Source: Dehalococcoidia bacterium (lineage in GTDB: Bacteria > Chloroflexota > Dehalococcoidia > Lucifugimonadales > Lucifugimonadaceae). Taken from it: a DNA stretch of 39,734 nucleotides. The stretch spans positions 1 to 39,734 of the forward strand of contig JAPYUK010000003.1 of the NCBI GenBank assembly GCA_029936155.1, in the 5' to 3' direction. Below, piece by piece: positions 12,705-19,827 of this stretch. How positions within the stretch are numbered: position 1 is the stretch's first letter; the number at the start of each line of letters is the position of its first letter. Under the pieces are notes generated by a model. It was not told where the DNA came from. It searched no databases and saw only the letters and a list, made by a program, of their open reading frames with translations. The translations under genes were made by a program, and so were the position numbers.

Positions 12705-13597
12705 CTATCCAAAAACGCCGAAGTAAGAATCGAAGAAGCGATTGGGGTCGACTGTCACCGCGACATTGTGCGGACCGTTCGAGTTGGGGCTCCAGTCGAT
12801 AGCGCCATCATCTCGGCCTTTGAGCCGGTTTACCGTTGCGGTTCCCCGTTCGTAATCACAGATCGAATCGTCGAACAGTGTGACTGCTGCGAGCGGATCA
12901 TGGAAGGTCATATATTTGCGATCGCCTGTGTGGTACATCTCAAGCACCGGTTCGAGAATGGGGTGGGTGAAGTGTTGTTCGATCTTCGCCGTTGTCATCA
13001 TCACGTCTTTTGTCACATCGAGCCCGATCGATGTATGGCGGGCGATCTTGCTCGATATATCGGCTGAATAGATAATTGCGGCTGATGCCGGGTCACAGTG
13101 GACGTTCCACTCGGAATTTGGCGCCTCAGGTTGTCTGTCGGTGAACCGCCCGAGCATCATGTGAAGTGATTTCACAAGGCTAGGGATGTCGGGATGGCTG
13201 GTGAAGAGATCGGCTATATTTGTCATCTGACCCACGGCAAGTAAAATGACCTCACCCGGATTACTTCGGATTGTCTCAGCCATGAATTCTGTGGCTGAAA
13301 CATCGCTGAATACTGTTTCGTGAGGCCAGCGCGTAAGAACCTCTGTCTGGGGTACTTTTGGCTGCCGAATCGGTCCGTCGAGTGGTTTTCTGCGCCAGGG
13401 ATGATCGGAACATTCAAGTCTGCGGCGTTGCAAATTGCGCTTGCGACCATTGCCCGTTCAATTGGCAGTCCAGAAACCGTGGTTATTCCTAGAAGATCGC
13501 AACGTGCCTGGGCTAGCAGGTAGGCGAGGGTGACCGCGTCATCGATGTCGGATCCGATATCGGTGTCTAGGAGGATTTTTACTTTGCAGCGGCTCAT
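12705..13597 (-). pseudogene. Nucleoside hydrolase interrupted by a frameshift
   Basis: Two overlapping frames together encode an inosine-uridine-preferring nucleoside hydrolase of about 297 residues. The first frame (from 13597) carries the calcium-binding ILLDTDIGSDIDDA motif and reaches DRFGSQKYP. The second frame resumes near PQTEVLTRWPHETVFSDVSA, with the typical EVILLAVGQMTNIADL and a C-terminal DPLAAVTLFDD. The total of 893 nt is one short of a multiple of three, so a single base is missing near 13345-13375, where short C and A runs occur. Intact enzymes hydrolyse the N-glycosidic bond of ribonucleosides. It is either a young pseudogene or a one-base assembly error. It follows the gene at 13633-13995 by 35 bp. 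Confidence 0.85.
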
Positions 13598-16892: not shown

Positions 16893-17188
16893 TCAACTGG
16901 TTGCGACGGTCTCGTCGAGGGCTTCGATCAACTTGGGCTTTGGTGCAAAGTTCTTGAATCGGTGTGTGACTGTGCCATTTGAGTCGACTATGAACGTCCA
17001 CTCCTGAGAGGACTGGCCCCATTCCCGAGAACGGGTGCGAGCTTTGCGATGCCGAGATTGCCGTCGATCTCGGGGAGCTCAAGTTTTCCTGTCGCAAAGT
17101 GCGGTAGTGGCGGTGGGATTATTGGCTCTACGACAGGTGTGTTTGTTGCTGGTGGTGCGCCAGAATCCTGAGTAGATGTTGGAGCCAC
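16893..17188 (-). pseudogene. Membrane-anchored thioredoxin-like protein remnant
   Basis: Two frames share this stretch. Frame 1, open from far upstream, encodes a possible TM anchor (SLAIGSIVLIAW, near 17230-17270), a Pro/Thr-rich linker and ELPEIDGNLGIAKLAPVLGNG, ending at a TAG near 16989. In another frame EWGQSSQEWTFIVDSNGTVTHRF continues to a TGA at 16893. The FIVD.NGTVTHRF strand-turn-strand is typical of the C-terminal half of thioredoxin/redoxin-fold proteins. The central part with the redox cysteines is missing, so a frameshift plus a deletion is likely. It lies directly downstream of the sulfurtransferase gene, on the same strand. Confidence 0.5.
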
Positions 17189-17468
17189 GACGACCTGAAT
17201 TGGAGCATCAGCGGGGTCGAGATCGCCCCAGGCGATCAGGACTATTGAGCCGATTGCGAGCGATGTGAAAAGGGATTTGCGTAGTTTCTCTCGAAGTTGG
17301 GAGTTTTTTAGGCGCCAAAAAGAGGATGGGTAAAGCGGCGCGGCCTGCGCTATGTTTGTCGAGCCGTCACCAGTGTGTACGCTAATTGCGAGACAAACGG
17401 TTTTAGGGGTAACCGTGGCGGTTGTGGATAACGATGCCCCCCTACCGGTCGAGGAGTGTACTTGCTAA

Positions 17469-18332
17469 CTACGTCAGCGCCTCGACTGGACATGAGAGTA
17501 CGTCGGCCCATTCTCGCCACGATCCGTCATAGTCTTGTATGTTCTCGAAACCGGCCAGCTTCAAGGCCCAGAATCCGTGCGCCGCACGGATGCCCCCCTG
17601 TCAGTAGGTGATTACGTTCATGTCGGGCGTAATACCAACATCTGCAAGCACTTTCCGAATTTCATCTGCTGACTTCAGAACCGGGATATCGCCATCGGTG
17701 TTGAAGTGAGACCATTCGAGGTGCACCGCTCCCGGGATGCGGCCCCCTCGGGGTCCGCCCCGTTTGTTCGCACCAGTCCACTCGCCATCAGAGCGCACAT
17801 CGAGCAATATAGTGGAATCATCGTTGATCGCGTCCAGTACGCGTTCTCGTGAAGCGAAAATATCGGAATTTTTACGTGGTGTGAAGCTGCCGGTTGATCC
17901 TGCAATCGATGATGCATTGGTCGTTGTCTCACGACCTTCCGCCTGCCATTTCTCGAATCCGCCATCGAGGATTTTCACGTTTGTGTGGCCGTAGTAGTGC
18001 AGCGCCCACATCAGCCTGAAGCCGAAAACGGCGCCAAGCCGGTTGTAGGCAACCACCGTTGTGTCACCATCGATTCCAAGATCAGACATCGTTCGGGCGA
18101 ACTCTCCGGCTCCTTGGATATGAGTTCGATTCTCCAGCGACTGCTTGTAGTAGTGGTCGACAGGGTTTACCGAACCGGGAATGTGTCCCGCCTCGTAGTC
18201 TTCAGGTAAATCAGTATCGACCACCCGGACGTTGGCATCTGATATGTGTTCGGCCAGCCATTCGGTGGTTGCGAATATCTCTGGAGTTGTATAGCCACGT
18301 TGATGCGGAGGTGTAATTGAATTAGTACTCAT
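17469..18332 (-). CDS. Tandem rhodanese sulfurtransferase with in-frame TGA at the catalytic Cys (candidate selenoprotein)
   Basis: Read through the TGA at 17601-17603, the gene encodes 287 residues, the usual length for a two-domain rhodanese. Domain 1 (about 18-135) has DYEAGHIPGSVNP and ILDGGFEKW but lacks a catalytic Cys, as is normal. Domain 2 (about 150-285) has DVRSDGEW, GRIPGAVHLEW and then VITY, the TGA, QGGIRAAHG and YDGSWREW, ending at TAG 17469-17471. Cys homologues read VITYCQGGIRAAHG, so the TGA occupies exactly the catalytic persulfide position (residue 244). A hairpin follows 9 nt later. Selenocysteine insertion is the favoured reading; a Cys-to-opal mutation is the alternative. 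If terminated at the TGA, the product would lack its active site. It lies upstream of the thioredoxin-like remnant and divergent to hemA. Confidence 0.8.
17573..17591 (-). promoter_or_regulatory. Candidate bacterial SECIS hairpin
   Basis: In the mRNA, ATCCGTGC and GCACGGAT form a perfect 8-bp stem closed by a GGC loop. The stem starts 9 nt after the TGA, and the loop starts 17 nt after it. Known bacterial SECIS elements lie inside the coding region just 3' of the UGA, with a G at the start of a small apical loop about 16-37 nt away. The geometry fits; function is inferred. Confidence 0.6.
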
Positions 18333-18555: not shown

Positions 18556-19827
18556 TTGAATTTCATACTCGCAGGGCTTAATATTGACCGCGTGCCAGTA
18601 GAAGTGCTGGAATGCGTAACGGTACCGACTCACTCACTCAAGGAACACCTTGAGCGCCTCGCAACACATGCTGGTGGCGGAGTAATTCTTTCAACATGCA
18701 ACCGCACCGAGATCTACTCGGTTGCAGAAGATGTTGAAGTCGGAGTTCGCCATCTCAAAGAGTACATCGACGCTGTTCCCGAGCACGATGGTGTCACCGG
18801 AATCGGCGATTACGTTTACACCATGACTGGTGATGCAGTTGCTGAGCACCTGTTTGGCGTAACCGCTGGACTTCAGTCGATAGCACTTGGTGAATCTCAG
18901 ATACTTGGACAGGTGACGAGGGCGTTGCAGGCGGCTGGAGAGGCCGGAACTGTTGATCCTGTGCTTTCACGACTGTTCCACGCTGCACTTCGAACAAGTA
19001 GAAGAATTCGCAAAGAAACCGATCTGGGCCGTAACCGAATATCTGTTTCATCACTCGGAGTTCAAGAGCTGCAGAGCACACTTGGCGACCTGAAAGGCCT
19101 GCGCGTGTTGCTGGTTGGTGCCGGTGAGATGGGCAAACTTACAGCGCGTGCCCTTCGTCGCTATGGTGCCGACGATATTGTTGTCTCAAGCCGATCAATG
19201 AACCATGGCCGTATTCTTGCCGATGAGCTTGGGTCACCGCAGGTTCCGTTCGAGGATATTGCTAAGACGCTTGTAGAGACCGATGTACTGATTACCTGCA
19301 CGGCAGCAATCAACTCGGTTATTTCTGCCGACACGATCAGCACGGCAATTGCCGGACGACTTGATCGTCTACTCAGCGTTCTCGATCTCGGAATGCCCAG
19401 AGATGTCGAGCCGGCCACTGCCGGTCTCGTTGGTGTGAACCTGGTAAGCCTTACAGAGCTTCAGGCGAAATCCGCAGAGAGTTGGGAGCTTCGAGCCGAG
19501 GCTGCAGCAGAGGCGCAAGGTCTTATCGAAGACGGCGTCCGACGCTTCAAGGAACGCTTGACGGGCATCGATCATGAGCCGGTGATTCGCACGCTCGGTG
19601 CTCGCATGGAGCAAATGCGGCGCGAGGAAGTCGAGCAGACATTGAGCCGACTCGACGATCTAACTGACGAGCAGGCAATATCTGTTGAGAAGATGACCCG
19701 ATCGTTGGTACGGCGGATACTCGCCGACCCAATCAGCTTCCTGCGAAGTGAAGAGGAGAGTGCTACTGAGGCAGTGCAAAAAGTCTTCGCTCTCCTCGAC
19801 GAAGAAGATAGCGACGAAGCTGAGTAA
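18556..19827 (+). CDS. hemA: Glutamyl-tRNA reductase
   Basis: A 423-aa enzyme that reduces glutamyl-tRNA(Glu) to glutamate-1-semialdehyde with NADPH, the first committed step of C5-pathway tetrapyrrole synthesis. The catalytic Cys48 lies in ILSTCNRTEIY. GVTAGLQSIALGESQILGQV forms the substrate-binding part, and LRVLLVGAGEMGKLTARAL is the NADPH-binding Rossmann loop. The C-terminal helical dimerisation domain spans about 320-420. The start is the TTG at 18556, which gives the normal N-terminus (NFILAGLNI) of the family. hemL follows after an intergenic hairpin, so the two steps are adjacent. Confidence 0.96.
   Translation: MNFILAGLNIDRVPVEVLECVTVPTHSLKEHLERLATHAGGGVILSTCNRTEIYSVAEDVEVGVRHLKEYIDAVPEHDGVTGIGDYVYTMTGDAVAEHLFGVTAGLQSIALGESQILGQVTRALQAAGEAGTVDPVLSRLFHAALRTSRRIRKETDLGRNRISVSSLGVQELQSTLGDLKGLRVLLVGAGEMGKLTARALRRYGADDIVVSSRSMNHGRILADELGSPQVPFEDIAKTLVETDVLITCTAAINSVISADTISTAIAGRLDRLLSVLDLGMPRDVEPATAGLVGVNLVSLTELQAKSAESWELRAEAAAEAQGLIEDGVRRFKERLTGIDHEPVIRTLGARMEQMRREEVEQTLSRLDDLTDEQAISVEKMTRSLVRRILADPISFLRSEEESATEAVQKVFALLDEEDSDEAE

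Follow-up and report, generated by a model that had tools for sequence, protein, structure and literature searches.

Does an in-frame TGA at the catalytic position of a rhodanese gene end the protein, or is it read as selenocysteine (Sec)? The question is raised by a minus-strand frame in a 39,734-nt stretch of a metagenome-assembled genome (MAG) of a Dehalococcoidia bacterium, hereafter the window. Read with the standard code, the frame ends at the TGA; read through it, a two-domain sulfurtransferase continues for a further 43 codons to a TAG. The frame, the positions of both codons and the length of the extension match what the earlier note had described, and its claim that the TGA replaces the active-site cysteine also holds, as solved rhodaneses have their catalytic Cys at the aligned position. 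The features concerned are:

17469..18332, minus strand: predicted Sec-containing rhodanese (sulfurtransferase) with two domains, 287 residues when the UGA is translated as Sec; ATG at 18332-18330, TAG at 17471-17469
17505..17849, minus strand: C-terminal (catalytic) rhodanese domain, the best PF00581 stretch, residues 162-276
17601..17603, minus strand: in-frame UGA, predicted Sec244, at the catalytic position in the motif U-Q-G-G-I-R and aligned to the catalytic Cys of 1uar

The protein matches PF00581 twice (profile search, E 1.2e-38) and carries its catalytic residue in the second of two rhodanese domains, as expected of the two-domain PF00581/COG2897 type. Its predicted model (pLDDT 94) adopts the standard tandem rhodanese fold, with 1uar as the best match (TM 0.85). 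No obvious signal peptide was seen by eye at the N-terminus, from which we infer a cytoplasmic protein. We hold with high confidence, from sequence comparison, that selenocysteine is the catalytic nucleophile of this two-domain rhodanese, which is probably cytoplasmic.

The catalytic codon was compared across 103 distinct orthologues (duplicates removed) from SAR202/Dehalococcoidia and relatives. It is TGA in 74, TGC in 19 and TGT in 10, with no other codon at this site. The alignment of close homologues that the earlier note had proposed therefore shows TGA alternating with Cys only (74 versus 29), the arrangement expected of a selenoprotein, in which an in-frame UGA occupies a functional Cys position and homologues carry Cys. 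A same-site TGA occurs in 39 genomes among the 60 relatives searched; within the genus, it is found in the window's genome and in 17 of 18 others, the remaining one (G012) having no orthologue. A scan of named genomes yielded 80 loci, nearly all from SAR202, Dehalococcoidia or other Chloroflexota, and recovered the TGA here as well, with single-cell genomes (L159, L176) and single-contig genomes among its carriers, and a wider phylum survey found TGA together with the hairpin described below in more distant relatives (L205, L208, L210, and L228). The cultured Tepidiforma flava (L190) has Cys at the catalytic site, and plasmid and phage collections held only relatives below 60% identity. On the protein tree, the Sec/Cys state changes at least four times, as counted by a quick method under a weak root placed on two long paralogues. 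At the deepest splits Sec occurs in both branches, and it is therefore likely, judging from this tree, that Sec was ancestral and that Cys replaced it later.

One phylum-level relative (G171) carries both a UGA form (L205) and a stop-free form (G171:C6:4933-5745) of the rhodanese, a candidate Sec/Cys pair. Separately, a UGA form from a record titled Deltaproteobacteria (RHO3_bin_65; L178:318-1163) falls among SAR202 sequences in the tree, reflecting either transfer or a mis-binned contig.

Selection on the codons beyond the TGA was assessed within the genus, where median pN/pS is 0.13 in codons 11–40 past the TGA versus 0.18 in the 60 codons before it, which indicates that the downstream part is translated. 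Relaxed selection downstream, named in the earlier note as grounds for abandoning its reading, is thus not what is observed; the codons past the TGA are instead under purifying selection.

Directly behind the TGA lies the remaining element of the gene:

17573..17591, minus strand: bacterial-type SECIS hairpin, 8 bp stem, GGC loop

Its sequence is ATCCGTGC-GGC-GCACGGAT, with 9 nt from TGA to stem and 17 nt from TGA to loop, exactly as first described. Folded as a single sequence the hairpin is unremarkable (z -1.8; 9 of 200 shuffles fold equally well), and the case for it therefore depends on comparison. Of the 74 TGA genes, 70 have a stem of ≥6 bp beside the loop, versus 0 of 29 Cys genes; random synonymous recoding would be expected to produce one in 2.8%. 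Conservation is thus confined to TGA genes, and the loop of the orthologous hairpins, 17 nt beyond the TGA, reads GGC or GTC. TGA genes spell the residues R-A-A-H with frozen codons (CGT 73/74, GCG 70/70, GCG 64/64, and CAC 67/70), and Cys genes use mixed codons for them. Across 36 distinct rows, 87.8% of stem cells are paired and eight cells show changes in both partners (shuffle mean 1.5). The covariation score of the stem exceeds all 500 shuffles and the signal is destroyed by sliding the partner, a result that is not a probability, since the rows are related and were hand-picked for diversity. The element thus has the small, G-holding loop of a SECIS placed after UGA, with conservation and covariation restricted to UGA genes.

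The source MAG (2.07 Mb in 84 contigs, 89% complete, not closed) encodes part of the Sec machinery that the earlier note had proposed seeking in the same genome. Both selA (509 bits) and selB (322 bits; reading frame of 635 aa) score above cut-off. The tRNA-Sec gene is present, cut by the end of contig C46: the last 28 nt of the contig match genus sisters at 96–100% in a search with a sister's tRNA-Sec region, and the genes adjoining this 3' end are those beside tRNA-Sec in the sisters, where the anticodon is TCA. The rest of this gene is absent from the assembly, and the only Rfam tRNA-Sec match over threshold in the MAG (52 bits) is a tRNA-Ser GCT by ARAGORN. A search for selD did not find it in this 89%-complete MAG; selD-like matches on C18 (93 bits) and C47 (74 bits) lie below cut-off and resemble the weak matches that accompany the true SelD in nearly every relative. 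The missing SelD and the tRNA-Sec fragment are compatible with an assembly of this completeness, yet they are gaps.

Among relatives, every one of the 39 genomes whose orthologue has TGA carries selA, and 37 of these 39 have a selD with a UGA of its own. Four of the eight genomes with a Cys orthologue lack selA (G023, G024, G026, and G033), and all four selA-less bearers of the orthologue have Cys; by our own arithmetic, which ignores kinship, the probability that the eight would include all four by chance is about 4e-4. One of them, G026, holds a UGA-containing selD, and its lack of selA may therefore be a gap in that MAG.

The window's MAG (G000) also carries a second likely selenoprotein (L229, contig C81:39596-39958), a thioredoxin-like protein with the motif YCUINC (UxxC) and repeats behind it, whose UGA is followed by the hairpin CTTCCGC-AGTT-GCGGAAG.

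Were the TGA a true stop, the gene would be truncated or a pseudogene and the part downstream a relic. The standard code does end the frame there, and TGA terminates 3 of 23 long ORFs in the window, which makes it a normal stop in this genome. Against this stand the conservation of the TGA at one site in proteins down to about 35–45% identity, the purifying selection beyond it, the tie between hairpin and TGA, the retention of the ~40 codons past it in nearly every orthologue and the alternation with Cys, and we consider termination at this codon highly improbable. We give just as little credence to the insertion of another amino acid, whether by code reassignment, a suppressor tRNA or Sec-free programmed readthrough: the reading frame alone would look identical, but TGA serves as a stop elsewhere and terminates several orthologues of the rhodanese gene itself, it alternates at the catalytic site with no codon but those for Cys, and the genome has selA and selB together with a SECIS-type hairpin, with tRNA-Sec (TCA) in the sisters. 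A miscalled TGC or TGT might be suspected in a single, unclosed MAG, but the same-site TGA recurs in 74 distinct orthologues from independent assemblies, the single-cell and single-contig genomes among them; to judge from these independent genomes, a sequencing or assembly error is already refuted, and its probability is practically nil. The genome comparison therefore makes a very strong case, at the level of sequence, for Sec at the catalytic site: it shows a UGA that is evidently decoded rather than obeyed as a stop, a predicted SECIS hairpin directly behind it and a lineage equipped with Sec machinery.

As to what the Sec protein does, its active-site loop, U-Q-G-G-I-R, has six residues, of which U244 (U or C), Q245, and R249 are invariant. 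Six-residue loops are typical of sulfurtransferases, whereas seven-residue loops belong to the Cdc25 type, and the loop here is accordingly of the sulfurtransferase kind. From rhodanese chemistry, the enzyme most likely transfers sulfane sulfur via an enzyme-bound Se–S intermediate. The altered sulfur or selenium chemistry that the earlier note proposed for a Sec rhodanese stands as a hypothesis. By analogy with the families involved, SelB would bind the hairpin and deliver Sec-tRNA to the UGA, and the Cys orthologues would carry out the same reaction through an ordinary persulfide. When selenium or SelB is lacking, a 243-residue product without the active-site loop would be expected.

The genes on either side of the rhodanese bear on its partners:

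18556..19827, plus strand: hemA (glutamyl-tRNA reductase), divergent neighbour and the most frequent neighbour in the compared loci (28 loci)
17054..17287, minus strand: remnant, 5' part of a thioredoxin-like (TlpA-type) lipoprotein gene (tblastn with the L112 protein, 46% over 84 aa)
16902..17024, minus strand: remnant, 3' part of the second downstream gene (SCO-like, CTNAVC; tblastn with the L112 protein, 76% over 41 aa)

The label SCO-like is our own and derives from the CTNAVC motif, Pfam giving no match. The thioredoxin-like lipoprotein gene stands next after the rhodanese in 22 of 80 related loci, in most of which the SCO-like gene follows; apart from this pair, the commonest context is divergent hemA-hemL. 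Neither arrangement points to a particular substrate. In sister genomes, the lipoprotein and SCO-like genes are the first and second downstream of the rhodanese. In the window, 16902-17287 retains just the beginning of the lipoprotein gene and the tail of the SCO-like gene, and the two remnants therefore appear, from their sequences, to have been joined by an internal deletion spanning about 2 kb. Elsewhere in the MAG, no close and intact lipoprotein gene of this kind was found.

Other features of these loci were also recorded. In six loci, including L176:6852-8006, the UGA rhodanese is followed after about 49 bp by an arylsulfotransferase-like gene (PF05935). Farther along the window, at 12705-13597 on the minus strand, a nucleoside hydrolase (PF01156) is spread over two frames (profile positions 1-66 and 95-296), a frameshift that is either real or an assembly error.

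The neighbourhood admits another view of function, in which the Sec protein serves mainly in selenium traffic, as a perselenide carrier for SelD, or in peroxide or persulfide reduction, rather than in general sulfur transfer. Rhodaneses can reportedly carry selenium, according to work on the bovine enzyme, and the recurrent thioredoxin-like lipoprotein, mostly with the SCO-like protein behind it, would suit such a role. Coordinates in the compared genomes, however, show no general linkage of the rhodanese gene to selD or selA, and Cys orthologues persist in genomes without selA or selD (G023, G024, and G033), which would have no use for selenium delivery; we regard this alternative as unlikely. 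Returning to sulfane sulfur transfer, we offer one broader and tentative proposal, which we think has some chance of being right: the Sec rhodanese, the thioredoxin-like lipoprotein and the SCO-like protein may together form an uncharacterised selenium-dependent sulfane-sulfur pathway in SAR202/Dehalococcoidia. In this view Sec would be the ancestral state in much of the group, the SECIS would have stayed almost frozen, and Cys would have taken the place of Sec repeatedly.

For annotation, the practical consequence is that the standard code would cut the rhodanese at residue 243, with loss of the active site. The large natural set of Sec and Cys orthologues also makes it possible to ask what Sec adds to a sulfurtransferase.

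Several characterized or curated families resemble the window protein. The Cys enzymes Thermus thermophilus 1uar and Mycobacterium tuberculosis CysA2, CysA3, and SseA share its fold (TM 0.83–0.85, 29–34% identity), its two domains and the position of the catalytic loop in the second, but differ in having a catalytic Cys, the loop of 1uar being CRIAER against UQGGIR here. Among NCBIfam models, none covers the Sec-rhodanese family at its cut-off. The curated rhodanese_LYCAU model (NF041203, rhodanese-related (seleno)protein) also describes a rhodanese selenoprotein family, but a short one (126 positions) of the CxU type, and the window protein scores 30.6 bits against its cut-off of 115. Similarity to ExtH (NF040901), a rhodanese-like protein of selenite/tellurite reduction operons, is partial, extending over both rhodanese domains at 60 bits against a cut-off of 200, and no such operon was seen around the rhodanese gene in the loci compared. 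Assignment as 3-mercaptopyruvate sulfurtransferase (NF008557, equivalog) likewise fails, at 124 bits against 250.

The closest counterparts come from metagenomes. The earlier note had pointed to rhodanese-type selenoproteins in marine metagenomes, and correctly: a Sec-containing ‘Rhodanese-related sulfurtransferase’ of COG2897 was reported from the Sargasso Sea in 2005 with three sequences (PMC1088965) and again in the GOS metagenome data in 2008 (PMC2398784). Sec rhodanese is also listed with MQG53192.1 in a 2022 review (PMC9312934) and, as ‘form 4’ (PF00581, motif UxxG, MCY3690685.1), in a 2026 review (PMC13188914), with whose printed motif the UQGG of the window protein is consistent. As far as the accessible parts of these sources go, the metagenomic proteins have in common with ours the two-domain type, an active-site Sec, a marine origin and a predicted SECIS directly after the UGA. 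The window protein thus fits a kind of Sec rhodanese known since 2005, the subfamily being matched by COG type, motif and habitat rather than by alignment. A literature search of partial coverage found nothing linking SAR202 to selenoproteins, and the accessible text of the metagenomic reports names no host lineage, whereas here the hosts are SAR202/Dehalococcoidia and other Chloroflexota. A selenoprotein family first seen in metagenomes is thereby placed in a named marine lineage.
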